Source: Cellulomonas sp. SG140
GTDB lineage: Bacteria; Actinomycetota; Actinomycetes; Actinomycetales; Cellulomonadaceae
Reading direction: 5' to 3'
DNA: 64,000 nt
Assembly: GCF_025770785.1 (NCBI RefSeq)
Contig: NZ_JANZLA010000003.1
Location: 186,001 to 250,000 of the forward strand
Shown in pieces: positions 1 to 14,861 of the stretch. The translations under genes were made by a program, and so were the position numbers. The notes under the pieces are model-generated. The model searched no databases. It had not been told where the DNA came from and saw only the letters and a program-made list of their open reading frames with translations. The number at the start of each line of letters is the position of its first letter. The first letter of the stretch is position 1.

Positions 1-233
1 ACTCGATCGCGTCGATGGCCGGTGCGCTCGCCGCAGGCTTGGGTGGTGGCCCGGCCGTGCCGACCGAGTGGCTGGAGCAGGTCGAGCACGCCAGCCGGAT
101 CGACGTGCGGGCGACCGGGCGGCTCATGGCCGACGTCGTGACGGAGCTGGTCGGCGCCGATGCCCGCCGGGCGTCGGAGCGCGCCGCGCGGCTGTCCGCG
201 TTGGTGGCGCAGCCAGCGGGGGAGCGCCCGTGA
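1..233 (+). CDS. ADP-ribosylglycohydrolase family protein, C-terminal fragment (5' end outside window)
   Basis: The reading frame is open from the first complete codon and ends with TGA at 231-233. The first visible residues, SIASMAGALAAGLGG, match what follows the last metal-binding DTDS motif of ADP-ribosylglycohydrolases, where an alanine/glycine-rich helix packs against the dinuclear Mg site. The family removes ADP-ribose, or sometimes other ribosyl groups, by hydrolysing N- or O-glycosidic bonds. Only about 77 C-terminal residues are visible, so the substrate cannot be judged. The stop overlaps the GTG start of the next gene, also an ADP-ribosylglycohydrolase, so the two are paralogues in one operon. 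Confidence 0.8.
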   Translation, partial: SIASMAGALAAGLGGGPAVPTEWLEQVEHASRIDVRATGRLMADVVTELVGADARRASERAARLSALVAQPAGERP

Positions 234-1585
234 GACTGACCTGGGCACAGCCGGAGGACCTCCTCGCGCACGAGCTGGTCCAGTCGCAGGCCGAGGGCAA
301 GGACGTGTCCGCCGTGCGCGACCGCTGGGTGGCCGCTGGGGGTGATCCGACCCCCACCGCGTCCGGGGCCTCCGACGGCCCCCGACTGCAGCCGCTGCGG
401 CCGCTCGCCGGCGCCCTGCTCGACGAGCTGGACGCGACGCCCGCGCCGCCGGATCCGGCACAGCCGGACGGGTGGGCCGACCTCGCGGCGATCCTCGGGT
501 CGGTTGCCGACGAGCAGCCGGGGCCCGACCTCGGCGTCCGGCTGGCGGGGGCGTGGACGGGCCGGGCCGCGGGATGCGTGCTCGGCAAGCCCGTGGAGAA
601 GATCCCGCGGCAGGGCATCGAGGCGATCCTGCGGTCCACCGGCCGCTGGCCGCTGGACCGGTACTTCACGGCGGCAGGTCTGCCGGACGACGTGGCGGCC
701 CGGTGGCCCTGGAACCGGCGCAGCGCGCCGACGAGCCTGGAGGAGAACATCGCCGGGGCACCCGAGGACGACGACCTCAACTTCCCGATGCTGGCGCTGC
801 TGCTGCTCGAGCGGCACGGCTCCGGGTTCAGCACGGAGGACGTCGCGCAGCTGTGGCTCGACCAGCTTCCGGCCGGACGCGTGTTCACCGCGGAGCGGGC
901 CGCCTACCGCAACCTCCTCGAGGCGTACCCGGTGCCGGAGACGGCCCGACGGCGCAACCCGTTCCGGGAGTGGATCGGCGCGTTGATCCGCGCCGACGTG
1001 TACGGCTGGACCAACCCGGGACAGCCCCTGCGTGCCGCCGAGCTGGCCTGGCGCGACGCACGGCTCAGCCACACCCGCAACGGGCTGTACGGGGCGATGT
1101 GGGCGGCGGCGCTGGGGTCGGCAGCCATGGTGGCCGACTCGGTGGAGTCCGTCCTGGACACCGCCTCCCGCGTCGTCCCGCCGGCGAGCGCGCTGGCGGA
1201 CGCGATCGAGCTCGGTCGCCGAGCGGGCCGTGACGCGGACACCCTCGTCGACGGGCTCGACGAGCTGCACGCGCGGTACGGCGGGCTGCACTGGGTGCAC
1301 GTCCTGCCCAACGCCGCGACCATCGCGTTCGCCCTCGAGCGCGGTCAGGGGCGGTTCGGGGACAGCGTGTGCGCCGCAGTGACCGCCGGGTGGGACACCG
1401 ACTCCGTCGGGGCCACCGTCGGCGCGGTCGTGGGAGCGCTGGTGGGGGTCGAGGGGATCGGGCAGCGCTGGACGGCGCCGATCGACGGGCGGATCGCCAC
1501 GTCGTTGCCCGGGGGCGAGCAGCGGATCGACGACCTCGTCGCCCGGACCGCCCGGCTCGCCCAGGACGCGGGGAGCGGTCGATGA
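230..1585 (+). CDS. ADP-ribosylglycohydrolase family protein (451 aa)
   Basis: The GTG start at 230 forms a GTGA overlap with the preceding stop; the frame stays open further upstream but that part is only a shadow of the previous gene. After about 100 N-terminal residues of unknown role, the catalytic domain starts with GCVLGKPVE near residues 116-123. The acidic cluster PEDDDLNF (178-185) stands where the family usually has TDDT, and GWDTDS (387-392) is the C-terminal metal motif. The dinuclear metal site therefore looks complete, although the protein is longer than typical 300-350 aa members. Its place beside a ribokinase suggests it frees a ribosyl or other pentosyl group from a small-molecule conjugate; this is inference. 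Confidence 0.85.
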   Translation: MRLTWAQPEDLLAHELVQSQAEGKDVSAVRDRWVAAGGDPTPTASGASDGPRLQPLRPLAGALLDELDATPAPPDPAQPDGWADLAAILGSVADEQPGPDLGVRLAGAWTGRAAGCVLGKPVEKIPRQGIEAILRSTGRWPLDRYFTAAGLPDDVAARWPWNRRSAPTSLEENIAGAPEDDDLNFPMLALLLLERHGSGFSTEDVAQLWLDQLPAGRVFTAERAAYRNLLEAYPVPETARRRNPFREWIGALIRADVYGWTNPGQPLRAAELAWRDARLSHTRNGLYGAMWAAALGSAAMVADSVESVLDTASRVVPPASALADAIELGRRAGRDADTLVDGLDELHARYGGLHWVHVLPNAATIAFALERGQGRFGDSVCAAVTAGWDTDSVGATVGAVVGALVGVEGIGQRWTAPIDGRIATSLPGGEQRIDDLVARTARLAQDAGSGR

Positions 1586-2484
1586 GCGGACGGGTCGTGG
1601 TGGTCGGCTCGGCGAACGTCGACCTCGTCGTCGACGTGGCGCGGCACCCGTCGCCGGGGGAGACCGTGCTCGGTGGCGCTCTGCGCCGCAGCCCCGGCGG
1701 CAAGGGCGCCAACCAGGCGGTGGCCGCCGCCCGAGCCGGAGGCGCGACGACGTCGTTCGTCGGCGCGGTCGGTCAGGACGACGCCGCCGAGCTCCTGCTC
1801 GGGTCGCTGCGCGATGCAGGCGTGACCACCGACACGGTCCAGCGGGTCGACGTACCGACCGGCACGGCGCTGATCACCGTCACGCCCGACGGCGAGAACA
1901 CGATCGTCGTGGCGGCCGGCGCGAACGCACGCGTCAGCCTGGTAGCCGCTGCCGCGACGGCCGTGGCGGGGGCGGACGTCGTCCTGGCCCAGCTCGAGAT
2001 CCCGCTCGAGGCGGTGCTCGCCGCTGCTCGGGCACGCAGACCGGGGTCCGTGCTCGTCCTGAACGCGGCACCGTCGCGTCCGCTGCCTGACGAGCTCTGG
2101 GCGGCGCTCGACGTACTGGTGGTCAACGAGCACGAGGCTGTCGACCTCGGTCACCCTGCGGTCGACGTCGACGCCGCCGTGGAGCTCCTGCTCGCGAAGG
2201 TGCCGACGGTCGTGGTGACCATGGGGGAGCGGGGCGCCCTGGTCGCGCGACGCGGCACCGCGGTGGTTCGCGTGCCCTCGATCGAGGTCGAGCCCGTCGA
2301 CGCCACCGGTGCCGGCGACACGTTCTGCGGCGTCCTGGCCGCACGCCTCGCCGACGGTGACGACGTCGTCGCCGCGGTCCGGACGGCCACGGTGGCCGGA
2401 GCCCTGGCGGTGACCCGCCACGGCGCGCAGCCGGGGGTACCGGCGGCGGCCGAGGTCGACGCGACCCTGGCGGCGCTCGCATGA
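1582..2484 (+). CDS. rbsK: Ribokinase / PfkB-family sugar kinase
   Basis: A 300-residue PfkB-family kinase starting at ATG 1582, overlapping the previous stop by four bases. The N-terminal GSANVDLVVDV strand, the substrate loop GGKGANQA (39-46) and the C-terminal DATGAGD signature (240-246, catalytic base Asp246) are all intact and ribokinase-like. The enzyme would phosphorylate ribose or a related pentose in the cytoplasm. Coupled to the two upstream ADP-ribosylglycohydrolases, it would trap the sugar they release. A related sugar or sugar-acid substrate cannot be excluded, because PfkB family members differ mostly in residues that cannot be read reliably by eye. Confidence 0.88.
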   Translation: MSGRVVVVGSANVDLVVDVARHPSPGETVLGGALRRSPGGKGANQAVAAARAGGATTSFVGAVGQDDAAELLLGSLRDAGVTTDTVQRVDVPTGTALITVTPDGENTIVVAAGANARVSLVAAAATAVAGADVVLAQLEIPLEAVLAAARARRPGSVLVLNAAPSRPLPDELWAALDVLVVNEHEAVDLGHPAVDVDAAVELLLAKVPTVVVTMGERGALVARRGTAVVRVPSIEVEPVDATGAGDTFCGVLAARLADGDDVVAAVRTATVAGALAVTRHGAQPGVPAAAEVDATLAALA

Positions 2485-4508
2485 GCGACACCGTCGACCC
2501 TCTCGTCCCGCGGCCGATCGACCTGCCGACCGCCGTCGACCTGCACGGACCGCTCACCGCCGAGCTGGTCGACCGGATGGACGACGCCAAGATCTTCGCC
2601 GCACCCGACCGGGAGGACGCGGTCGCGGCGTGGCGGGCCCGCCTGACCGAGTGGCGTGCGGCGTCACGTGACCGGATCGGCTACGACGGGCGGATCTACG
2701 ACGAGCCGGGCGCCGCGTGGGCGGCCCGCTGCCACGCGGTCGCCCAGGTGTGGCTGTGGGACGAGCTGCTCTACGACGCCGAGGCGGCCACCTTCACCCC
2801 TGACCGGTTCCTCGCCGACGCACGGGAGCGGTTCGGCGGCCTCGACGCCGTCGTGCTGTGGCACGCCTACCCCGTGATCGGCGTCGACGAGCGCAACCAG
2901 TGGGACTGGTACCGCGACGTCCCCGGCTTGCGGACGTTGGTCGACCAGCTGCACCACGCCGGCCTGCGCGTGTTCGTCGACTACAACCCGTGGGACGTCG
3001 GGACGCGTCGGGCCGGTGACGACCTCGACGAGCTCGCCTCGCTGGTCGCCGACCTGGACGCCGACGGCGTCTTCCTGGACACCCTCCGGAAGGCGGATCC
3101 GGAGCTGGTGGAGGCGTTGCGAGGCGTGCGACCCGGGATCGTGCTGGAGGGCGAGTCGAAGCTCGCGGTGGAGCGGATCGGTGACCACGCGACGTCGTGG
3201 GCCCAGTTCTTCGCCGACTCCGCCGTGCCCGGGGTGCTGCGCGCGCACTGGTTCGAACGGCGCCACATGCAGCACCACACCCGACGCTGGCACCGAGACC
3301 ACGCCGAGGAGCTGCAGTCGGCCTGGCTCAACGGCGTCGGGGTGATGGTCTGGGAGGTCGTGTTCGGTGTCTGGGTGGGATGGAACCCGCGCGACGCCGC
3401 CACCGCTCGCCGGATGCTCACGGTGCAGCGAGCGACCGACGAGCTCCTGCTGCGCGGCGACTGGACCCCCTTGGCGCCGCTCGCGACGCAGGCCCCCGGC
3501 GTGCACGCCTCTCGGTTCGCCCTCGACGGGGTCGAGCTGTGGGCACTGGTCAACCGCGGGCAGCACGACGTCACGGGCGCCGTGCTGCCCCCCGGGACCG
3601 ACGGGACGGTGGTGGACCTCACAGCCGCTCCCGACCACGACCAGACGGCCGGCGGTGAGCACGTGCAGCTGCCCGCTGAGGGCATCGCCGCGGTCCTGGT
3701 CCTTCGGCCGGGCGCACCCGAGCCGTCGTGGCTGCCGGACCTGCGTGCGGCGATGCGAGGCCTCGATCACGTGCCCGACGCCCGGTTCCGGCACCGCGTC
3801 GCCGGCCGGGTCGGGACGACGGCGCCACCGGTCACGAACGGCGCGGCGATCGAGGGGGAGACGGTGGTGGTCCCGGCAGGCCCGTGGGTGCTCACGGTCC
3901 GGTACCGGGCGCGTGAGACGGGCATGTACCAGGGCGCGCCGTACGTCGACGAGTGGAAGCCCTTGCCGCCCCGCCTGCACGACCCGCGGACCCTGCAACG
4001 GGACGGCGTCCAGGACGCACCCGTCGCCGTGGGTGCCGACGAGGTGAGCAACCGGGAGTTCGCTCGGTTCCTCGAGGCGACCGGCTACCGGCCGGCCACC
4101 CCGAACCGGTTCCTGCTCCACTGGTCCGACGGTCGGCCCGTCCCTGGCCACGAGGACGATCCGGTGGTGCACGTCGACCTGGCGGACGCGCGCGCCTACT
4201 GCGCGTGGCGAGGCGGGCGGCTGCCGACGGAGGACGAGTGGCAGCTCGCGGCGCACACCGGCCGCCTGCGGCGCCGGGCGCCCCTGGTGTGGAACTGGAC
4301 GGACAGCGAGCACACGGACGGGCGAACGCGGTTCGCGATGCTCAAGGGCGGTGCCGACCACCTCGCGCAGGGCTCCGACTGGTACTTCGACGGCGGACCC
4401 CAGCCGCCGGAGGTCACGGCGAAGCTGCTGCTGCCCGGCCTGGGCCTGGCCCGGAGCCGGTGGATCGGCTTCCGTTGTGCGTGGGTGATCCAGGAGGAGC
4501 GACCATGA
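2481..4508 (+). CDS. Glycosidase-like barrel protein fused to a degenerate FGE-sulfatase (SUMF1-type) domain
   Basis: This 675-residue protein overlaps the ribokinase stop by four bases. Roughly residues 1-400 read like a (beta/alpha)8 glycoside-hydrolase fold: alternating strands and helices, FVDYNPWDVG, DGVFLDTLRKADPE and VLEGESK, all with the acidic strand ends typical of such barrels. A beta-rich segment follows. From about residue 500 an FGE-sulfatase fold is clear (VGADEVSNREFARFLEATGY, AYCAWRGGRLPTEDEWQLAA, and terminal WIGFRCAW). The CxxxxC copper/cysteine pair needed for formylglycine generation is absent and only the structural Cys of GFRC remains. It is therefore unlikely to mature sulfatases, and a sugar- or ligand-binding role is more plausible. 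There is no signal peptide. Overall function unknown. Confidence 0.75.
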   Translation: MSDTVDPLVPRPIDLPTAVDLHGPLTAELVDRMDDAKIFAAPDREDAVAAWRARLTEWRAASRDRIGYDGRIYDEPGAAWAARCHAVAQVWLWDELLYDAEAATFTPDRFLADARERFGGLDAVVLWHAYPVIGVDERNQWDWYRDVPGLRTLVDQLHHAGLRVFVDYNPWDVGTRRAGDDLDELASLVADLDADGVFLDTLRKADPELVEALRGVRPGIVLEGESKLAVERIGDHATSWAQFFADSAVPGVLRAHWFERRHMQHHTRRWHRDHAEELQSAWLNGVGVMVWEVVFGVWVGWNPRDAATARRMLTVQRATDELLLRGDWTPLAPLATQAPGVHASRFALDGVELWALVNRGQHDVTGAVLPPGTDGTVVDLTAAPDHDQTAGGEHVQLPAEGIAAVLVLRPGAPEPSWLPDLRAAMRGLDHVPDARFRHRVAGRVGTTAPPVTNGAAIEGETVVVPAGPWVLTVRYRARETGMYQGAPYVDEWKPLPPRLHDPRTLQRDGVQDAPVAVGADEVSNREFARFLEATGYRPATPNRFLLHWSDGRPVPGHEDDPVVHVDLADARAYCAWRGGRLPTEDEWQLAAHTGRLRRRAPLVWNWTDSEHTDGRTRFAMLKGGADHLAQGSDWYFDGGPQPPEVTAKLLLPGLGLARSRWIGFRCAWVIQEERP

Positions 4509-5713
4509 GCGCGCCGCACGACCGTCCGCGGGGACCGTTGTCGGACCTACGAGTGGTGGACGCCTCCACCCTGTTCGCCGGGCCGATGGCGGCCATGCAC
4601 CTGGGCGACCTGGGCGCCGACGTGGTCAAGGTGGAGCACCCGCGCAAACCGGATCCGTCCCGCGGCCACGGGGTCGCCAAGGACGGCGTCAACCTCTGGT
4701 GGAAGACCCTGGGCCGCAACAAGGCGACGGTCACCGCCGACCTGTCCCGGCCCGGCGGCCGTGAGGTCTTCCTCGCCCTGGCTCGTACCTCGGACGTCGT
4801 CATCGAGAACTTCCGGCCCGGCACGCTCGAACGCTGGGACCTCGGGTACGACGTGCTCGCCGCGGAGAACCCGCGCCTCGTCCTCGCGAGGGTGACCGGC
4901 TTCGGCCAGATAGGGCCTTACCGCAACCGCCCCGGTTTCGGCACGCTGGCGGAGGCGATGTCCGGCTTCGCGGCGCTGACCGGCGAGCCGGACGGACCGC
5001 CGACACTTCCCCCGTTCGGGCTCGCCGACGGGATCGCGTCTCTGGCCTGCGCCTACGCGGTGATGGTGGCGCTGCACGACCGCGAACGGACCGGCCGAGG
5101 CCAGCAGGTCGACCTGGCGATCATCGAGCCGATCCTGGCGATGCTCGGCCCGCAGATCACGCGGTGGGACCAGCTCGGCACGATCCAGGCCCGCACAGGC
5201 AACCGCTCGTCCAACAACGCGCCGCGCAACACGTACCGCACGGCGGACGACCGCTGGGTCGCGGTGTCCACGTCGGCGCAGTCCGTCGCCGAGCGGGTCG
5301 TGCAGCTGGTCGGCCACCCGGAGCTCACCGCGCAGCCGTGGTTCGCGTCGGGCGCGTCCCGCGCGGAGCACGCGGACGAGCTGGACGCGGTGGTCGGAGG
5401 CTGGATCCGGCAGCGGACCCGTGACGAGGTCGCCGCGGCCTTCGAGGCGGCCGACGCCGCGGTCGCTCCCATCTACGACGCCCACGACATCGTCGACGAC
5501 CCGCAGTTCCGCGCCCTCGGGACGATCCACGAGATCGACGACCCGGAGCTGGGACGGATGAAGATGCAGGGCCCGCTGTTCCGGCTGTCGGACGCGGACG
5601 CCGTGATCGCCCACACCGGACGGCCGCACGGCGCCGACACCGATGCGGTGCTCCACGACCTCGGCTTCTCCGACGAGCGCATCGCCGAGCTGCGGTCGGA
5701 CGGTGCGATATGA
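4505..5713 (+). CDS. CaiB/BaiF family (class III) CoA-transferase
   Basis: A 402-residue protein from ATG 4505, which overlaps the previous stop (ATGA). Class III features are clear: VVDASTLFAGPMAAMHLGDLGADVVKVE at the N-terminus (first 20 residues diagnostic), RNKATVTADL near 71, ENFRPGTLERWDLGY near 101-115, and Asp175 in GLADGIASL, matching the aspartate that carries the acyl anhydride in formyl-CoA transferase. It would move CoA from a donor thioester to a carboxylic acid. With the CitE-like lyase immediately downstream, the expected logic is activation of a hydroxy-acid followed by C-C cleavage of its CoA ester. The acid is unknown. Confidence 0.92.
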   Translation: MSAPHDRPRGPLSDLRVVDASTLFAGPMAAMHLGDLGADVVKVEHPRKPDPSRGHGVAKDGVNLWWKTLGRNKATVTADLSRPGGREVFLALARTSDVVIENFRPGTLERWDLGYDVLAAENPRLVLARVTGFGQIGPYRNRPGFGTLAEAMSGFAALTGEPDGPPTLPPFGLADGIASLACAYAVMVALHDRERTGRGQQVDLAIIEPILAMLGPQITRWDQLGTIQARTGNRSSNNAPRNTYRTADDRWVAVSTSAQSVAERVVQLVGHPELTAQPWFASGASRAEHADELDAVVGGWIRQRTRDEVAAAFEAADAAVAPIYDAHDIVDDPQFRALGTIHEIDDPELGRMKMQGPLFRLSDADAVIAHTGRPHGADTDAVLHDLGFSDERIAELRSDGAI

Positions 5714-6543
5714 CCGGCGTCGTGGTGACGCTCCTCTACGCGCCAGCCGATCGGCCCGACCTCGTCACCAAGGCGCTGCGCTCGGTCGCCGACGTCGTCG
5801 TGCTCGACCTGGAGGACGCCGTCGCGCCGGCCCACAAGGCCGCCGCGCGTGACACGGTGCGCGAGGCGGTGGCGAACGCCGACCGTTCGGTCCAGGTCCG
5901 GGTGAACGCGCCGGGTACGCCGTGGTACGAGGGCGACATCGAGCTGCTGGCCTCGTTGCGGGCCGACCTCGGGGTGCGGCTGCCCAAGGTCGAGGTCCCC
6001 GAGCAGGTGGTCGACGCGGCCCGCCGCCTGCCCGCCCGGCCCTTGCACCTGCTCGTCGAGACCGCCCTCGGCGTCGAACGTGCCTTCGACGTGGCGAGCG
6101 CCGACCCCGCGGTGGCCTCGCTCGGCCTGGGCGAGGCGGACCTGCGCTCCGACCTGCGCTGCACCTCCGACGAGGGTCTCGCCCTCGCCCGCGCACGCAT
6201 CGTGCTGGCCGCGCGGGCCGCCGGTCTGCCGTCCCCCGCCATGTCGGTGTACCCGCACGTCAGCGACCTCGAGGGCCTGCGTGAGTCGTGCACGGCGGGC
6301 CGGCGGCTCGGCTTCTGCGGTCGTGCGGCGATCCACCCCGCGCAGCTCGACGTGATCCGGAGCGCCTTCGCCCCGACACCTGAGGAGGTCGTGCAGGCCC
6401 AGCGGGTGGTCGACCGGATCGGGACCGCGACGGCCGCCGGCGTCGGCGCGCTGGTCCTGGCGGACGGCACGTTCCTCGACGTCGCGATGCTGGAGCAGGC
6501 CAGGTTCGTGCTCGCGCTGGCGTCCGCGACCGCGCACGAGTAG
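5710..6543 (+). CDS. CitE/HpcH-type CoA ester lyase (citrate lyase beta-subunit family)
   Basis: A 277-residue member of the HpcH/HpaI aldolase and citrate lyase beta superfamily, joined to the CoA-transferase by an ATGA overlap. Visible landmarks are VVLDLEDAVAP (31-40), the substrate Arg in VRVNAPGTPW (64), the metal ligand Glu117 in LLVETALG and the acidic LGLGEADLRSDL near 138-149. Family members cleave malyl-CoA, citramalyl-CoA, or beta-hydroxyacyl-CoA analogues, or act as thioesterases. There are no citrate lyase alpha or gamma genes, so citrate lyase itself is excluded. It is the last gene of the operon; an opposing gene begins its 3' end 84 bases on. Confidence 0.88.
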   Translation: MTGVVVTLLYAPADRPDLVTKALRSVADVVVLDLEDAVAPAHKAAARDTVREAVANADRSVQVRVNAPGTPWYEGDIELLASLRADLGVRLPKVEVPEQVVDAARRLPARPLHLLVETALGVERAFDVASADPAVASLGLGEADLRSDLRCTSDEGLALARARIVLAARAAGLPSPAMSVYPHVSDLEGLRESCTAGRRLGFCGRAAIHPAQLDVIRSAFAPTPEEVVQAQRVVDRIGTATAAGVGALVLADGTFLDVAMLEQARFVLALASATAHE

Positions 6544-6627: not shown

Positions 6628-7584
6628 CTACGCGACCGGGAGCCGTCGGGCCGCGAACGTGGCGCGGTAGTCCAGGGGCGGTACGCCGACCGCCGCTCGG
6701 AAGTGGTGCCGCAGCAGCGAGCCCGAACCGAAGCCGCATGCGCGAGCCACCGCCTCGATGTCCTGGTCGGTCTCCTCGAGCAGCTCCCGAGCCCGCTGGA
6801 CGCGTTGGGCGGTCAGCCACCGCGCCGGCGTGGTGCCCGTCTGCGCCACGAAGCGCCGGGCGAACGTTCGCGGAGACGCCAGGGCACGGGCCGCCAGGGA
6901 CGCGACGCTGTGCGGCTCGGCGAGGTTGGCCTCGGCCCAGGCCAGCACGTCGCGGAGCGCATCGTCGTCGCACTCCGGGACGGGCGCCACGATGTACTGG
7001 CGTTGTCCGCCGTCGCGTTGGGGCGGGACCACCATGCGCCGCGCGATCGTGTTGGCGACGCCGGCGCCGAGCTCCTGGCGCACCACGTGCAGGCACGCGT
7101 CGATGCCGGCGGCCGTGCCCGCGCTGGTCACCACCTGGCCGTCGTCCACGTAGAGCACGTCCGGGTCCACGTCGACCGTCGGGTACCGCTCGGCGAGCTC
7201 TCGGGCGTACCTCCAGTGCGTGGTGGCGCGCCGACCGTCGAGGACGCCGGCTGCGGCGAGCACGAACACCCCGGAGCAGACGGACAGCAGGCGGGTGCCG
7301 CGCGCATGTGCGGCCCGGACCGCCCGGAGCGGCCGCTCGTCGTAGTGGCCGATCGTGGCGGCCGGGATCGTCAGCAGGTCGACGTCCTCGAGATCGGCCA
7401 GGCTGTGGGTGACCTCCACCCGCACGCCGACCGCAGTGTCGACGCGGGGCCGGGCAGCGGCGATCCGCAGGTCGAACGACGGAACTCCCTCGTCGGTGCG
7501 GTCGATGCCGAAGACCTCGCAGACCACTCCGAACTCGAACATCGCCAGTCCGTCGACCAGCAGCACACCAACGGTACGGAGCAT
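6628..7584 (-). CDS. GlxA-family transcriptional regulator (DJ-1/PfpI domain plus AraC-type HTH)
   Basis: A 318-residue two-domain protein. Residues about 1-180 form a DJ-1/PfpI-like amidotransferase fold (VGVLLVDGLAMFEFGVVCEV; LLSVCSGVFVLAAAG with the elbow cysteine; VVTSAGTAAGIDACLHVV). Residues about 210-310 form an AraC/XylS DNA-binding domain (SPRTFARRFVAQTGTTPARW, then ELLEETDQDIEAVARACGFG). Such regulators sense small metabolites through the N-terminal domain and usually activate neighbouring catabolic genes. The only divergent candidate target is a small membrane ORF at 7675, and paired GGCAGGA-like elements lie between them. Confidence 0.9.
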   Translation of the reverse strand: MLRTVGVLLVDGLAMFEFGVVCEVFGIDRTDEGVPSFDLRIAAARPRVDTAVGVRVEVTHSLADLEDVDLLTIPAATIGHYDERPLRAVRAAHARGTRLLSVCSGVFVLAAAGVLDGRRATTHWRYARELAERYPTVDVDPDVLYVDDGQVVTSAGTAAGIDACLHVVRQELGAGVANTIARRMVVPPQRDGGQRQYIVAPVPECDDDALRDVLAWAEANLAEPHSVASLAARALASPRTFARRFVAQTGTTPARWLTAQRVQRARELLEETDQDIEAVARACGFGSGSLLRHHFRAAVGVPPLDYRATFAARRLPVA

Positions 7585-9865: not shown

Positions 9866-11545
9866 GTGGCCCAGCCGCCTCGACTGCGTGCCCGGTACCG
9901 CCGGATCGTCACGTTCTTCGCCGGGGTGACGGCGAGCTTCATCTTCTGGGAGATCGTCCTGCCCAGGCTGGGGCTGCGACGCTGGTCGAACAGCAGCCGA
10001 GCGCACCGGAACCGTCGCACGGCGGTGCGGTTCCGGGCGCTCGCCCTGGCCATGGGCGGCCTGATGATCAAGGTCGGCCAGTTCCTCTCGGCGCGCCTGG
10101 ACGTGCTTCCGGCCGAGATCACCGAGGAGCTGGCGGGTCTGCAGGACGAGGTGCCGCCGGCTGCGTTCGCCGACATCCGGCGGTGTGCCGAGGCGGAGCT
10201 CGGACGCACCTTGGCGGAGGCCTTCCGGACGTTCGACGAGACGCCGCTGGCGGCCGCCTCGCTGGGGCAGGCCCACCGGGCGGTGCTCCGGGACGCCGAC
10301 GCGGCCGAGACGGGCTTCGCGCACGTCGTCGTGAAGGTGCAGCGGCCGGACATCGACCGGATCGTCGCCGTCGACCTCGCGGCGCTCCGTCGTGTCGGTC
10401 GCTGGTTGACCCGGTACCGGCCGGTCAGCAGCCGGGCGGACGTCCCGGCCCTCGTGGAGGAGTTCGCGGCCACGACGCTGGAAGAGCTGGACTACACCGC
10501 CGAGGCCCGCAACGCCGAGCACTTCCGCTGGGTGTTCGAGAACGACGACAGGGTCGGCGTGCCGCGGGTGGCCTGGGAGCACTCACGGTTGCGGGTGCTG
10601 ACCCTCGAGGACGTCTCGGCGATCCGGCTCGGCGACTACGCCCAGATCACGGCCGCGGGGATCGACCGCGCACAGGTCGCCGAGAAGCTGGTGGAGACCT
10701 ACCTGCAGCAGATCTTCGACGACGGGGTGTTCCACGCCGACCCGCACCCCGGCAACCTCTTCGTCTCACCCGTCGACGGGCACCCCGGGCAGTTCCGCCT
10801 GACGTTCATCGACTTCGGGATGGTCGGACGGGTCCCCGACACGCTGCGTACCTCGCTGCGGGAGGCGTTGATCGCCGTCGGCACCCAGGACTCCGCCCGG
10901 CTCGTGGCCGCCTTCACGTCCATGGGCGTGCTGCTGCCGACCGCCGACACCAAGCTGATGGACCTCGCCGTGGCCCAGGTGTTCGACCGCTTCGGCGGCA
11001 TGGCGATGAGCGACCTGCGCAACATCAGCCACAAGGAGATGGCGAAGATCGGCCTGCAGTTCCGTGAGCTGCTGGTCAGCATGCCGTTCCAGCTCCCGGA
11101 GAACCTGCTGCTGCTCGGCCGCACGCTGGCGGTCCTGTCGGGCATGTGCGCCGGACTGAACCCCGACTTCAACCTGTGGACGTCGATCACGCCGTATGCC
11201 GCCACGCTGGTCTCCGGAGAGGCCGGCGAGGGCGGCCTGTGGAGCACGATCACCACGGAAGGCGCCAAGATCGCGCAGTCGCTGGTGGCGCTCCCCGGGC
11301 GCGCCGACCGCATCCTGACCCTCGTCGAGCGCGGTGACCTCTCGGTGAAGACGCCGATGCTCGAGCTGCGGGTCCGGCAGCTCGACCGCTCCGTGCGGCA
11401 GATCCCGATGGCCATCGTCTTCGCGGCCCTCCTCCTGGCGGGTGCCGTGCTCTACGGGGCCGAGCCGACCTTCGCCAAGGTGCTCATGGCCGGGTCCCTG
11501 CTGCCGCTGATCGGTGCGCTCCGGCGCGGGCGGGGGCGCTGGTAG
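9866..11545 (+). CDS. AarF/ABC1/UbiB-family atypical kinase
   Basis: A 559-residue protein from GTG 9866. The family-specific KxGQ motif is intact (MIKVGQFLSARLD, Lys69-Gln72), as are ASLGQAHRA, HADPHPGNLF and the metal-binding FIDFGMVGR. Two hydrophobic helices at the C-terminus (about 510-550) would anchor it in the membrane. UbiB-type ATPases support isoprenoid quinone or other prenyl-lipid metabolism; actinobacteria make menaquinone, so the lipid partner is not obvious. Pairing with a PadR repressor suggests induction by a lipophilic or phenolic stress compound; that is inference. Confidence 0.93.
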   Translation: MAQPPRLRARYRRIVTFFAGVTASFIFWEIVLPRLGLRRWSNSSRAHRNRRTAVRFRALALAMGGLMIKVGQFLSARLDVLPAEITEELAGLQDEVPPAAFADIRRCAEAELGRTLAEAFRTFDETPLAAASLGQAHRAVLRDADAAETGFAHVVVKVQRPDIDRIVAVDLAALRRVGRWLTRYRPVSSRADVPALVEEFAATTLEELDYTAEARNAEHFRWVFENDDRVGVPRVAWEHSRLRVLTLEDVSAIRLGDYAQITAAGIDRAQVAEKLVETYLQQIFDDGVFHADPHPGNLFVSPVDGHPGQFRLTFIDFGMVGRVPDTLRTSLREALIAVGTQDSARLVAAFTSMGVLLPTADTKLMDLAVAQVFDRFGGMAMSDLRNISHKEMAKIGLQFRELLVSMPFQLPENLLLLGRTLAVLSGMCAGLNPDFNLWTSITPYAATLVSGEAGEGGLWSTITTEGAKIAQSLVALPGRADRILTLVERGDLSVKTPMLELRVRQLDRSVRQIPMAIVFAALLLAGAVLYGAEPTFAKVLMAGSLLPLIGALRRGRGRW

Positions 11546-11561
11546 GGGAGTCGCACCGGGA

Positions 11562-11579
11562 CGCGTCGAGCACGACGCG
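11562..11579 (+). terminator. Hairpin terminator after the AarF-type kinase gene
   Basis: A perfect 7-bp stem, CGCGTCG / CGACGCG, with an AGCA loop lies 16 bases after the kinase stop. A second small hairpin, GGAAG-CC-CTTCC, follows directly. No T-tract, as is common in high-GC actinobacteria. Confidence 0.5.
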
Positions 11580-11723
11580 GGAAGCCCTTCCACCCGGCCA
11601 GAGCGTTCAGACCAGGCCCGCGCCGGTCGATCCTCTGGTATGCACGAAGAGGTGCCCCGCCTGGCGCCAGCCAGGCGGACGCCCGACGACTCCGGGGGAG
11701 CTGTGGCCGGTCTCACCTGCACC

Positions 11724-11759
11724 GCCGCGGCTGGCGGCCGGGCCGGTACCAGCCACGGC
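11724..11759 (+). other. Imperfect hairpin upstream of the EAL gene
   Basis: GCCGCGGCTGG (11724-11734) can pair with CCAGCCACGGC (11749-11759) with one mismatch over 11 positions and a 14-base loop. It ends 35 bases before the EAL protein start, so it could affect translation or be a late terminator for the upstream operon. Nothing protein-like was seen in the rest of the 11546-11794 gap. Confidence 0.25.
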
Positions 11760-11794
11760 CGGCACCCGACGACCTCGGTCGCGGAGCACTCCTC

Positions 11795-13000
11795 ATGAAG
11801 CTCCCCGCCGGGGTGGGCGAGACCGCGCAGGCCGGGATGTCGTCGCACGCCCGCGAGCGCCTCGGGCTCCTCCTGGACACCTCGTCGCGAACCGGCCCGG
11901 CGTTCGCCGGGGCGCTGATCGCAGTCACGGTCGCCGCCGCCTGGTTGGGCACCTACGCGGCCGGGGGGACGAAGTCCGTGCTGCCCCAGATGTTCTACCT
12001 GCCGATCATCGTGGCGGCCGGTCGCTTCGGGTGGCCGGGTGCAGTGGCGACCGCGAGCGTCTCCGGGATCGTGACCGGTCCTCTGATGCCGCTCGACGTG
12101 GCGGCCGGACTGCCACAGGCCCCGGAGGCGTGGGTCGCACGCCTGGTCGCCTTCCTGACGGTCGGCGTCGTCGTGGCGTGGCTGACGGGGGAGTCGCGCG
12201 TCTCCGTCATCGACTTCGCTCGCGACGCCCGCGCCGCGCGGGTCCTCCTGCGGGGCCTCGAACGGGGGGACTTCAGCGTCCGCTACCAGCCGGTGGTGGA
12301 CCTCGGGAGCGGCCGGACCACCGGGTTCGAGGCGCTGTGCCGTTGGGACGGGGCGGCGCTCGGGAGCGGTTCCCCCTCCGTGTTCATCCCGCTCGCCGAA
12401 CGGACCGGGACCGTCGGCCCGATCGGGCGGTTCGTGCTGCGCGAAGCCGTCCGCCAAGGCGCGGCCTGGCAGCGCGACGGGTCCAACGTGGTGATGGCGG
12501 TCAACGTCTCAGCGCACCAGCTCAGCGACCCCGACCTGTTCTCGCAGGTGCGCACCGCACTCCTGGACGCGGGCCTGCGACCGGCGAGCCTCTGCATCGA
12601 GATCACGGAGACGGCCATCGTGCAGGACCGGCCTACGGCGCTCGGCCACGTCCGCGCTCTGCACGACCTCGGCGTCACGATCGCGCTGGACGACTTCGGC
12701 AGCGGGCACGCCTCGCTGGCCTACCTGCTCGACTTCCCGATCGACATCCTCAAGATCGACGTGGCGTTCGTCAGCACCGTGGACTCGGACGCCAGGAGCG
12801 CGGCGCTCGTGAGCGGCATCGTCGAGCTCGCCCGCGCGCTCGGCGCGAAGACGATCGCGGAGGGCATCGAGCGGCCGGCGCAGCTGGACACGCTGCGAGC
12901 GATGGGCTGCGACTACGGCCAGGGCTACCTCCTGGGCCGACCCGGGCCGGCGCCGTCCAGCTCGGTGCTGCGCTCGTCGGACCACCCGGCGGCGACGTAG
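11795..13000 (+). CDS. Membrane-anchored EAL-domain cyclic-di-GMP phosphodiesterase
   Basis: A 401-residue protein starting at ATG 11795 after a GGAG site. Residues about 35-132 contain three to four membrane segments of a MASE-like input domain. The EAL domain runs from about 155 to 390. Its catalytic set looks complete: EAL 179-181, Asn in AVNVSA (237), Glu in EITET (269), DD 299-300 in LDDFGSG, Lys320 in LKID, Glu356 in AEGIE and Gln376 in GCDYGQGY. Hydrolysis of c-di-GMP to pGpG is expected. No GGDEF partner domain is present, so it should only degrade the messenger in response to an envelope or membrane signal. It is monocistronic and bounded downstream by a strong terminator. Confidence 0.93.
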   Translation: MKLPAGVGETAQAGMSSHARERLGLLLDTSSRTGPAFAGALIAVTVAAAWLGTYAAGGTKSVLPQMFYLPIIVAAGRFGWPGAVATASVSGIVTGPLMPLDVAAGLPQAPEAWVARLVAFLTVGVVVAWLTGESRVSVIDFARDARAARVLLRGLERGDFSVRYQPVVDLGSGRTTGFEALCRWDGAALGSGSPSVFIPLAERTGTVGPIGRFVLREAVRQGAAWQRDGSNVVMAVNVSAHQLSDPDLFSQVRTALLDAGLRPASLCIEITETAIVQDRPTALGHVRALHDLGVTIALDDFGSGHASLAYLLDFPIDILKIDVAFVSTVDSDARSAALVSGIVELARALGAKTIAEGIERPAQLDTLRAMGCDYGQGYLLGRPGPAPSSSVLRSSDHPAAT

Positions 13001-13028
13001 GACAGGTCGAGACACCGACGGAGCCGGT

Positions 13029-13070
13029 CGACCCGCTCGACCGAGCCGGTGCGCTCGGTCGAGCGGGTCG
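13029..13070. terminator. Bidirectional terminator, perfect 17-bp stem
   Basis: CGACCCGCTCGACCGAG (13029-13045) and CTCGGTCGAGCGGGTCG (13054-13070) are exact reverse complements around an 8-base loop. It lies between the converging 3' ends of the EAL and oleate hydratase genes, 29 bases after one stop and 9 bases after the other, so it can serve both. Confidence 0.8.
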
Positions 13071-13079
13071 CAACGGCGG

Positions 13080-14861
13080 TCAGCCGCGGACGAGACCGTG
13101 CTCGGCGAGCAGCTTGGCGATCTGCGTGCCACCCACCAGGCCGTCCAGCACCTGCTGGCCGAGCGGGCCGCCGGGGATGTCGAGCGGGGCACCGTCGCGC
13201 AGGTCGCTCGTCGCCTGCAGCAGCGTGCGGATGTCGTAGGTGGAGGCGAACACCTCGGGAATGCCGCGCTCGATGTCGAGCAGGGTGTACACGGCCTCCA
13301 TCGGGGTCCGCACGGAGTACTCGACGGTGAAGATGATGTCCCGCTGCTTGGTCTCCGCGAACTGGCCGATGAAGGCGAAGTTGACCGATCCGTCGGGCAC
13401 GACGTCCGGCCGGTCACCGGCCTGACGGGGCATGAAGAACGCCGTGACGTACGGCATCATCACCGGCACGGTCTTGGCACCCGTGGCGGCCAGCTCGGGG
13501 ATCTCCTCCACCGGAACGCCCATGTGGTACAGCCACTCCTGGGTGATCTCCTCACCCGTGCACTCCTGCATCGGCTTCTTGACGAAGTCGCCCGGCCGGT
13601 CGACGAACAGCGCGTAGACCCACGCCACGATCTCGTCCGGCTTCTGCTGCTTGAAGTGCGGCTGGCGGTTCACGGTCCACGACATCAGCCAGCTGGAGTC
13701 GCGCGCGGTGACGATGCCGCCGGTGACCACCTTGCCGGCGAACGGGTCGCGGCCGGCGATCTTCTCGATGTAGCGGGGGATGCGCTCGTCGAGCGTGGTG
13801 ACGGTCGCCGACTCCCACTTGCTCTCCGGGATGTGCGAGCCGAACACGTCCGGGTGCCCGAACGACGGGTCCTTCGCGGCGATGCGCCGCCACAGGTCCC
13901 AGGCCGGTGCCGGCCCCTCGTCCAGCCGGGCCGGCGTGTGGTGGTCGCCGTTGTCGGAGTTCTCGGTGAGCGACCCGATGGTCATGAACAGCAGGTCGTT
14001 CTCGGTCAGGTCGACGCCGTCGCCGCCGGCGCCGTTCTCGCCCGACACCCAGTGGATCCGGGTGGCCTGCTTGCGGCCGGTGGCGGGGTCGATGTCGAAG
14101 TCGACGTCGGTGACCTCGGTCTCGAACCGGAAGACGACCCCCTGGTCCAGCAGCCAGGTGTACAGCGGCAGCACGAACGACTCGTACTGGTTGTACTTGC
14201 TGAACTGCAGGGCGCTCATGTCGCCCAGCCCGCCCATGTGGTGGATGAACCGGTGCAGGTACAGCTTCATCTCGAGGGCGGAGTGCCACTCCTCGAACGC
14301 CAGCATGGTCCGCCAGTACAGCCAGAAGTTGCTGGCGAAGAACTCGGGGGAGAAGACCTCGTTGATCCGCTTGTTCTCCAGCTGCTCACGCGTGGCGAGG
14401 AAGACCTTGATGAGCTCCTTCTGCGCCTTCTCCGACATGTCGAACTTCGCGTCGGTGTGGGCGTCCTGCCCCTGCTTCTCGGTGACCCGCAGCAGGCTGT
14501 AGTTCGGGTCGTCCTTGTTCAGCCAGTAGAACTCGTCGAGCACGCTCGCACCCTCGATCTCCAGGGAGGGAATCGACCGGAACAGCTCCCAGAGCAGCTC
14601 GTAGTGGCTCTCGAGCTCGCGTCCGCCGCGGATCACGAAGCCCTTCTCGGGCTCCTTGATGCCGTCGAGCGCACCGCCCGGCAGCCGCAGCCGCTCGAGG
14701 ATCGTGATCCGCGAGCCCGGCATCTGCCCGTCGCGGATCAGGAAGGCGGCACCGGCGAGCGAGGCGAGCCCCGCACCCACGAACCACGCCGTCTTGTCGT
14801 CCACACCGGCAGGCTTGCGGGGACGCGCGAACGCCTCGTAGTTGCCGCTGCTGTAGTACAT
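13080..14861 (-). CDS. ohyA: Oleate hydratase
   Basis: A 593-residue flavoprotein. The family N-terminus MYYSSGNYEAFARPRKP is present, followed by the FAD dinucleotide-binding GAGLASLAGAAFLIRDG (29-45) ending at acidic Glu56 (ITILERL), GGALDG, RGGRELESHYE, and later FMTIGS and QFAETKQRDIIFTVEYSV. These are characteristic of bacterial oleate hydratases, which add water to the cis-9 double bond of unsaturated fatty acids to give 10-hydroxy acids, thereby detoxifying them. Length is within the usual 560-650 range. It lies 40 bases downstream of a TetR gene on the same strand and is probably de-repressed by free fatty acids. Confidence 0.95.
   Translation of the reverse strand: MYYSSGNYEAFARPRKPAGVDDKTAWFVGAGLASLAGAAFLIRDGQMPGSRITILERLRLPGGALDGIKEPEKGFVIRGGRELESHYELLWELFRSIPSLEIEGASVLDEFYWLNKDDPNYSLLRVTEKQGQDAHTDAKFDMSEKAQKELIKVFLATREQLENKRINEVFSPEFFASNFWLYWRTMLAFEEWHSALEMKLYLHRFIHHMGGLGDMSALQFSKYNQYESFVLPLYTWLLDQGVVFRFETEVTDVDFDIDPATGRKQATRIHWVSGENGAGGDGVDLTENDLLFMTIGSLTENSDNGDHHTPARLDEGPAPAWDLWRRIAAKDPSFGHPDVFGSHIPESKWESATVTTLDERIPRYIEKIAGRDPFAGKVVTGGIVTARDSSWLMSWTVNRQPHFKQQKPDEIVAWVYALFVDRPGDFVKKPMQECTGEEITQEWLYHMGVPVEEIPELAATGAKTVPVMMPYVTAFFMPRQAGDRPDVVPDGSVNFAFIGQFAETKQRDIIFTVEYSVRTPMEAVYTLLDIERGIPEVFASTYDIRTLLQATSDLRDGAPLDIPGGPLGQQVLDGLVGGTQIAKLLAEHGLVRG

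Follow-up and report, generated by a model that had tools for sequence, protein, structure and literature searches.

The stretch of DNA analyzed here (the window) comprises 64,000 nucleotides of the Cellulomonas sp. SG140 genome (G000:C12:186001-250000; the listed contamination of the source assembly is 6.25%), and positions 1-6543 contain, on the + strand, six open reading frames (ORFs) that make up the 3′ part of a ten-gene operon. When 16 kb upstream of the window was read as well, the operon was found to start 5.2 kb upstream of it. In order, the ten genes encode a regulator (LacI; positions 10814-11839 of locus L008), permease A (L008 11836-12774), permease B (L008 about 12789-13607), a solute-binding protein (L008 13671-14975; PF01547, 129 bits), two members of the ADP-ribosylglycohydrolase family, DraG1 (L008 14977-16233, with its 3′ end at window positions 3-233; PF03747, 158 bits over the full length) and DraG2 (window 230-1585; PF03747, 156 bits), which carries an N-terminal extension of ~97 amino acids, a ribokinase-like PfkB-family kinase (1582-2484; PF00294, 201 bits), a 675-amino-acid protein predicted to combine a GH13-like barrel with an FGE-fold domain (TBF; 2481-4508; PF03781, 72 bits, residues 516-612), a family III CoA-transferase (CaiB; 4505-5713; PF02515, 393 bits) and a CitE-like CoA-ester lyase (CitE; 5710-6543; PF03328, 112 bits). 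The edge of the window splits the operon, leaving LacI, the two permeases, the solute-binding protein and most of DraG1 outside. A first-pass annotation of the window had described six genes joined at every junction by an ATGA or GTGA overlap, and all five junctions within the window are indeed four-base overlaps (GTGA at 230; ATGA at 1582, 2481, 4505 and 5710). Its gene list was right as to ORFs and families, but it left the sixth protein, TBF, unnamed, and the operon it described was cut by the window edge. Considering the overlaps, the conserved gene order and the operator described below, the ten genes are probably co-transcribed.

Which transporter might lie upstream had been left as a question by the first-pass annotation, and the operon itself probably encodes one of the CUT1 type, in the form of the two permeases and the solute-binding protein. 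The latter belongs to PF01547, the SBP_bac_1-type family of CUT1 sugar ABC transporters; many of its closest solved chains are named sugar-binding proteins, and it resembles binders of sugars and oligosaccharides. The permease ORFs are conserved, and their rhizobial relatives carry a carbohydrate ABC permease annotation. None of the ten operon genes encodes an ATPase; rhizobial versions carry UgpC. As a kind of system, this is a sugar-uptake catabolic operon with an unusual enzyme set. Reading reactions and a substrate from the gene content, gene order, conservation, operator sequence and predicted folds, we propose, with a confidence just short of even, that the operon is self-contained and would take up a pentosylated conjugate, remove a ribose-like sugar from it, and then activate a branched hydroxy-dicarboxylate with CoA and split it by a retro-aldol reaction.

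Scanning species genomes with TBF yielded 137 confirmed loci, the best 80 of which make up the named set; since these loci were found through TBF, the conservation figures are conditional on this protein, and loci from further genome scans overlap the named set in part. With matches of <30% of the query or <36% identity dropped, all ten genes occur in the same order at 60 of the 80 named loci, and the kinase alone is missing at 11, so that the set is conserved and the genes cannot be described as unlinked in all relatives. Six loci are cut by contig ends and three depart from the pattern. L066 has no LacI, DraG1, kinase, CaiB or CitE matches, and L126 has no CaiB and no CitE. In Promicromonospora kroppenstedtii (L115, 555-3012), LacI matches only in part and is directly followed by a partial TBF match, the intervening genes are gone, and neither CaiB nor CitE was found in the 10 kb downstream of the TBF match, an arrangement that may reflect either a deletion or an assembly fault. 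The 74 loci that were placed in the tree are labeled Actinomycetota and span seven labeled orders, while the six that were not placed have genus names that we take to be actinobacterial. In the tree, the neighbor of the window is Cellulomonas sp. 73-92. Because the pairwise distances of LacI, the solute-binding protein, DraG1, DraG2, TBF, CaiB and CitE correlate at 0.82-0.97 (59 loci), the operon appears to evolve as a unit.

The operon is conserved where present, yet it is patchy, since few genomes of the order, and only one in a sample of the phylum, match TBF. Within the window's order, TBF matched 29 of 396 genomes at E 1e-10; eight of these matched in the FGE domain only, leaving 21, the window's genome included, and among the matches listed for the order none fell in the 14 genomes of the same genus. 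In an even sample of the phylum, the single genome of 396 with a TBF match was the window's own. Downstream of CitE, 14 of the 80 named loci (L063, L067, L069 and others) contain a related ORF cluster. The L067 copy, the sole one scanned, is of the PF00756 esterase type and looks like a secreted protein containing repeat domains, with a possible extracellular role; as most loci lack this ORF, we do not count it as a member of the operon. At L116 (Tessaracoccus coleopterorum), tblastn matches to permease A are split and an esterase ORF looks broken, which perhaps reflects decay or sequencing errors.

A palindrome, TGGAAACGTTTCCA, or a close variant of it lies within 250 bp upstream of LacI at 70 of the 72 testable named loci, a count made in the very loci from which the pattern was derived, and it is present there twice or more at 48 loci. 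As a control, 118 of the 119 matches across the 80 loci (1.64 Mb) fall in LacI-upstream stretches. In the window's genome the operator occupies C12:180795-180808, immediately before LacI. A search of 14 whole genomes with the strict form of the pattern found it in 11, and in eight of the 14 (G000, G273, G172, G278, G378, G225, G137 and G336) it occurs solely at the operon. The pattern fits a local, self-regulated operon. The operator sequence is printed in none of the open-access papers among the matches listed.

The two DraG proteins have the family domain, the fold and the acidic metal motifs of DraG/ARH ADP-ribosylhydrolases. Among 68 DraG1 sequences, 118 positions are identical in 99% or more, and the motifs GDGH.TDD and GRD.DS are conserved at the same level, while in DraG2 residues D180-D182, D389, D391 and S392 are invariant in 32 sequences; we take these acidic motifs to be the dinuclear metal site of the family. 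The AlphaFold2 model of DraG2 (predicted local distance difference test score [pLDDT] 89.2) matches ARH3 (6g1p) with a VIA Z score of 32.1 and a root-mean-square deviation (rmsd) of 2.8 over 304 aligned residues. However, identity to ARH3 is 17%, the N-terminal extension of DraG2 sets it apart, and the genes stand in a sugar-uptake operon. DraG2 also scores far below the NCBI equivalog cut-offs for DraG (TIGR02662, 26.7 against 337 bits) and Tri1 (NF041672, 23.4 against 490 bits).

DraG2 is found outside the ten-gene operon. In an even sample of the phylum it occurs in 12 of 296 genomes, all of which except G603 were followed up, and seven belong to one Streptomyces-like genus. We take this genus to be Streptomyces, partly from gltB-, lgt- and trpB-like neighbors seen by eye at two of its loci (L167 and L172). 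All seven Streptomyces-like loci read have the order DraG3-DraG4-DraG1-DraG2-(kinase)-CaiB-CitE, with the kinase in five, and none has transporter, LacI or TBF matches. Of 150 genomes of this genus, 110 carry DraG1; at the 30 DraG1 loci listed, DraG2 lies directly downstream in 28 and DraG4 directly upstream in all 30. Since SCO2028-SCO2031 are DraG homologues and SCO2038 belongs, according to the accessible part of one paper, to the trpCXBA locus (PMC5036795), the cluster probably corresponds by position to SCO2028-SCO2033 of S. coelicolor. It shares with the Cellulomonas operon the order DraG1-DraG2-(kinase)-CaiB-CitE, but DraG3 and DraG4 replace TBF and no LacI or ABC transporter matches are adjacent.

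If the DraG proteins are true ADP-ribosyl hydrolases, they would regulate metabolic enzymes or the transporter by reversing ADP-ribosylation. The DraG/ARH fold and metal motif would suit such a role, and the accessible parts of two papers list the Streptomyces homologues as uncharacterized DraG/ARH family members and candidate ADP-ribosylhydrolases: SCO2028-SCO2030 in one (PMC5087735) and also SCO2031 in the other (PMC9411070). However, the ten conserved genes include no ADP-ribosyltransferase, a single Streptomyces-like cluster has four DraG genes, DraG2 falls far short of the DraG and Tri1 equivalog scores, and SCO2028 and SCO2030 are described, in the accessible part of a further paper, as inactive on U-alpha-ADPr, the one substrate concerned (PMC13036486). 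We therefore regard a role in ADP-ribosylation as very improbable. SCO2032 and SCO2033 appear in no paper among the open-access matches listed.

TBF is the member that the first-pass annotation left unnamed. In a Pfam scan, PF03781 was found in all 46 TBF homologues and was the sole family above its cut-off; none of the 46 matched GH13 or another Pfam glycosidase family, and the only other family at E 0.1 was PF01261, in one member (E 0.049). The structure model (pLDDT 84.9) places a barrel and a beta domain at residues ~50-410 and an FGE-fold domain at ~450-675. In the VIA comparison, whose rows name no further family and exclude nothing, the barrel matches the GH13-type chain 9vdg (Z 19.0, rmsd 3.6, 284 aligned, 12% identity), followed by GH129-type chains (Z 17.0 and 16.9), and the C-terminus matches FGE (6muj; Z 15.7, 187 aligned, 27% identity), in agreement with PF03781. 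Residues D200 and E225 are invariant in the 46 sequences, are also kept in homologues from Sphingopyxis and Spirosoma (35% and 33% identity), and sit just after beta4 and beta5, the strand ends that we take to carry the nucleophile and the acid/base of GH13 enzymes. TBF thus resembles GH13 and other glycosidases of clan GH-H in its barrel and beta domain and in an Asp and a Glu at presumed catalytic positions, but differs from them in its low identity to the top match, in having no GH13 family-model match and in its fused FGE domain. Given the predicted fold and the invariant residues, TBF is probably a retaining glycosidase of an unrecognized family. A TBF paralogue with 50% identity (L057 9419-11602) lies opposite a LacI gene with no DraG gene; a PfkB-like kinase and an ABC transporter are encoded nearby, together with a gene that looks like GH4. 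Because this paralogue stands alone, TBF may be able to work without the DraG genes.

On the sugar side, the solved chains closest to the operon kinase are ribokinases (6znx, E 1e-61), and N12, D14, the G39-G42 stretch, N44, E139 and D246 are invariant in 22 operon kinases; these residues may correspond to the ribose contacts of E. coli RbsK. In E. coli yegTUV, too, a DraG-family enzyme is found together with a transporter and a sugar kinase; the locus encodes a transporter, an ADP-ribosylglycohydrolase and a PfkB kinase; however, yegTUV has one DraG protein, a transporter of the MFS type and no CoA chemistry.

Homologues of TBF in other phylogenetic settings raise the possibility that a single residue is both furanose and acid, namely a branched sugar acid (aceric acid, or the adjacent apiose) from the pectin rhamnogalacturonan-II. 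In this case, DraG1 and DraG2 would be glycosidases that do the job of a GH127-family enzyme in Sphingopyxis, and CaiB and CitE would act on the sugar acid. Sphingopyxis has the order ribokinase-TBF-GH127-CoA-transferase, the Spirosoma TBF gene adjoins a GH28 (pectinase-family) gene, and the GH127 enzyme BT1003 is described as an aceric acid hydrolase in the accessible part of the source (PMC5698469). However, GH127 also covers an arabinofuranosidase and anhydrogalactosidases, and the operon encodes no oxidoreductase that would ready such an acid for CoA chemistry. The conserved kinase residues may match ribose-binding positions, and we know of no precedent for CitE action on a quaternary alpha-carbon. 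A rhamnogalacturonan-II residue is therefore an unlikely substrate.

As to the acid, the solved chains nearest to CaiB include 4ed9 (E 4e-52), the succinate-hydroxymethylglutarate (HMG) CoA-transferase 9br7 (E 2e-47) and an entry for formyl-CoA transferase. The Asp of its LADG motif, presumably the catalytic aspartate, is matched by an Asp in each of the five alignments shown, and 99% or more of 78 sequences keep it, which together with PF02515 places CaiB among the family III CoA-transferases. It is the least divergent of the seven operon proteins compared across 59 loci (mean distance 0.21 versus 0.35 for CitE). CitE belongs to PF03328 (nearest solved chain 8khl, E 2e-33) and scores below the equivalog cut-offs for citE (TIGR01588, 136.9 against 443.4 bits) and RipC (NF038242, 135.3 against 375 bits).

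A plasmid survey with CaiB matched 190 records, of which seven places were read, with Burkholderia relatives at 59-62% identity left out. On three haloarchaeal plasmids (L203, L204 and L208), genes for CaiB, HMG-CoA lyase and a LeuCD-like hydratase form a recurring cluster, and in two of these clusters an isochorismatase-family gene and an amidohydrolase gene lie immediately upstream. On a Rhodococcus gordoniae plasmid the CaiB relative is accompanied by a CoA ester lyase, with MmgE/PrpD nearby on the other strand, and in Streptantibioticus cattleyicolor it is followed by CitE and MmgE/PrpD. The Sphingomonas paeninsulae relative says little, as it is surrounded by aromatic-type and acyl-CoA genes and the CoA ester lyase is 10 kb off. 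The citramalyl-CoA lyase of the itaconate cluster Ict-Ich-Ccl belongs to the CitE family. As the accessible part of one paper describes it, the pseudomonad itaconate cluster brings a CoA-transferase, MmgE/PrpD and an (S)-citramalyl-CoA lyase together (PMC12290011). The Cellulomonas operon resembles that cluster in its CoA-transferase and lyase, and related CaiB/CitE pairs elsewhere adjoin MmgE/PrpD, but the operon itself has neither a hydratase nor MmgE/PrpD and has sugar-side enzymes instead. By analogy, the contexts of CaiB and CitE point to branched hydroxy-dicarboxylates, with no single one fixed.

Another possibility is salvage of modified nucleosides, in which the DraG proteins would be N-ribosidases, the kinase would recover the ribose, and CaiB and CitE would degrade an acid side chain or a ring-opened base. 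N-ribosidic bonds are among the known targets of DraG, and a CaiB relative on a Rhodococcus plasmid (59.6% identical) is accompanied by a dihydroorotase-family protein, an amidase, a hydantoinase-type gene and a CoA ester lyase. However, the conserved operon encodes no amidohydrolase or deaminase, its binding protein resembles those for sugars and oligosaccharides, and this form of the operon includes a GH13-like enzyme. Nucleoside salvage thus appears quite improbable beside the uptake of an oligosaccharide-sized conjugate.

Rearranged versions of the operon occur elsewhere. Nonomuraea gerenzanensis has the order LacI-permeases-solute-binding protein-DraG3-DraG4-DraG1-DraG2-kinase, with no TBF and with CaiB-CitE elsewhere on the same replicon. 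In a plasmid survey with DraG1 (22 records matched, nine fetched), eight loci were from the rhizobial order Hyphomicrobiales; LacI, a permease and DraG1 are present in all eight, DraG2 in seven, and CaiB in four (L197, L198, L200 and L201), three of which also have a CitE match. The Agrobacterium locus L193 has a ribokinase instead. In Mycolicibacterium arabiense (L207) the order is LacI-DraG-solute-binding protein-permeases-ribokinase-UgpC, and at L179 a DraG2-like gene adjoins RbsK. Since the rhizobial plasmids and Nonomuraea carry rearranged versions, the parts of the operon are modules: transporter with DraG; kinase; a further glycosidase (TBF, perhaps DraG3/DraG4, or GH127); and CaiB-CitE.

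Such separability, seen in Nonomuraea, Agrobacterium and Nocardiopsis coralli, would also be expected if the genes shared a regulator and dealt with different compounds of the same habitat, there being no single substrate. Against this stand the fixed order in 60 of 80 loci across several Actinomycetota orders and the recurrence of the DraG1-DraG2-CaiB-CitE core in two other settings, all seven Streptomyces-like loci and some rhizobial plasmids. We consider a set of unrelated substrates improbable and favor one conjugate degraded by the whole operon. The first-pass annotation had proposed removal of a ribosyl-type group, phosphorylation of the released pentose, CoA activation of an acid and retro-aldol cleavage. 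Because DraG occurs with ribokinase and a sugar ABC transporter in one context, and CaiB with a lyase that cuts C-C bonds of CoA esters in others, both halves of this chemistry recur apart; however, the proposal overlooked the transporter, the regulator and TBF, and CaiB-CitE can be absent. Its chemical reading is plausible and better grounded than before, although it is still drawn from gene families and their contexts.

How might the operon function? LacI would repress it from the nearby operator until a ligand arrives, and the CUT1-type transporter would, judging from its family, import a small conjugate of roughly oligosaccharide size. TBF is probably a retaining glycosidase, in which D200 would be the nucleophile and E225 the acid/base, and could trim a hexose-like unit. 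DraG1 and DraG2, given their fold and metal motif, may hydrolyze the bond to a ribose-like pentofuranose, and the released pentose would be phosphorylated by the PfkB kinase or, where this is missing, by a housekeeping ribokinase; the absence of the kinase from some loci fits a product that a housekeeping kinase can manage. CaiB would then transfer CoA to the acid thus released. This acid would most likely be a branched 3-hydroxy-dicarboxylate resembling citramalate, malate or hydroxymethylglutarate, and CitE would split its thioester to give acetyl-CoA plus a 2-oxo acid or a comparable fragment.

Several observations weigh against this pathway. We found no natural compound in which an acid of this kind is linked to both a pentofuranose and a second sugar. 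As the Streptomyces-like loci have no adjacent transporter or TBF, the substrate there may be made internally. CaiB-CitE is separable, with no match in L066, L115 or L126, a location elsewhere in Nonomuraea and absence from four of the eight rhizobial-order loci. The acid can be guessed only at the level of the family, because neither CitE nor CaiB reaches any of the NCBIfam equivalog cut-offs listed. The ribokinase label of the first-pass annotation agrees with the closest solved chains, but the operon kinase scores 274.3 bits against TIGR02152, the NCBI ribokinase model, which is below the cut-off of 299.65, and of 22 operon kinases taken from the 62 available (21 trimmed to the tblastn span), not one reaches E 3e-89, a proxy for that cut-off; it is for this reason that we call the sugar ribose-like. 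Finally, the strict operator occurs away from the operon in three of the 14 whole genomes searched (G133, G091 and G276) and was not found in three others (G147, G245 and G031); in all six, the operator, where seen at the operon, is a variant form.

Other substrates were considered and dropped. Bacillithiol, an alpha-glucoside of malate, would not account for the pentose, and malate does not require a route through CoA. Methanopterin, thuringiensin, ribose-containing aminoglycosides and HMG flavonoid glycosides each leave at least one operon function unexplained, and a route for apiose via apionate was set aside since no dehydrogenase is present.

As the first-pass annotation had supposed, no described pathway with this combination emerged: gene combination, pathway and substrate are all undescribed in the open-access literature among the matches listed, which is weak evidence of absence. 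It is possible, if doubtful, that the operon degrades an undescribed class of compound, oligosaccharide-like conjugates in which a branched hydroxy-dicarboxylic acid carries a ribosyl group, that TBF founds a new glycoside hydrolase family, and that this DraG branch consists of small-molecule ribosidases instead of erasers of ADP-ribosylation. If so, the ribosidase branch would include, by position, four DraG genes of S. coelicolor, SCO2028-SCO2031, for which it would offer a concrete alternative to the assumption of ADP-ribosylation signaling. The ten genes keep their order across several Actinomycetota orders, and Streptomyces-like genomes, rhizobia and a sphingomonad have related clusters; this suggests that a soil compound of some importance is consumed. 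The finding is of interest mainly because it would recast a group of DraG genes as metabolic and because TBF is a candidate for a new glycosidase family.

Genes flanking the operon include, at window 6628-7584 on the - strand, an AraC/DJ-1 type regulator that faces the operon end and whose best NCBIfam match is FtrA (373.9 bits against a cut-off of 425). Since a match to it (40%) was seen only in L094 among the matches listed, this regulator is probably outside the system. Farther downstream, a 593-amino-acid ORF on the - strand (window 13080-14861) looks, by eye from its translation, like an oleate hydratase. Upstream of the operon, L008 1-5017 (- strand) encodes two large secreted-looking proteins that appear by eye to be glycosidase-like with lectin-type domains.

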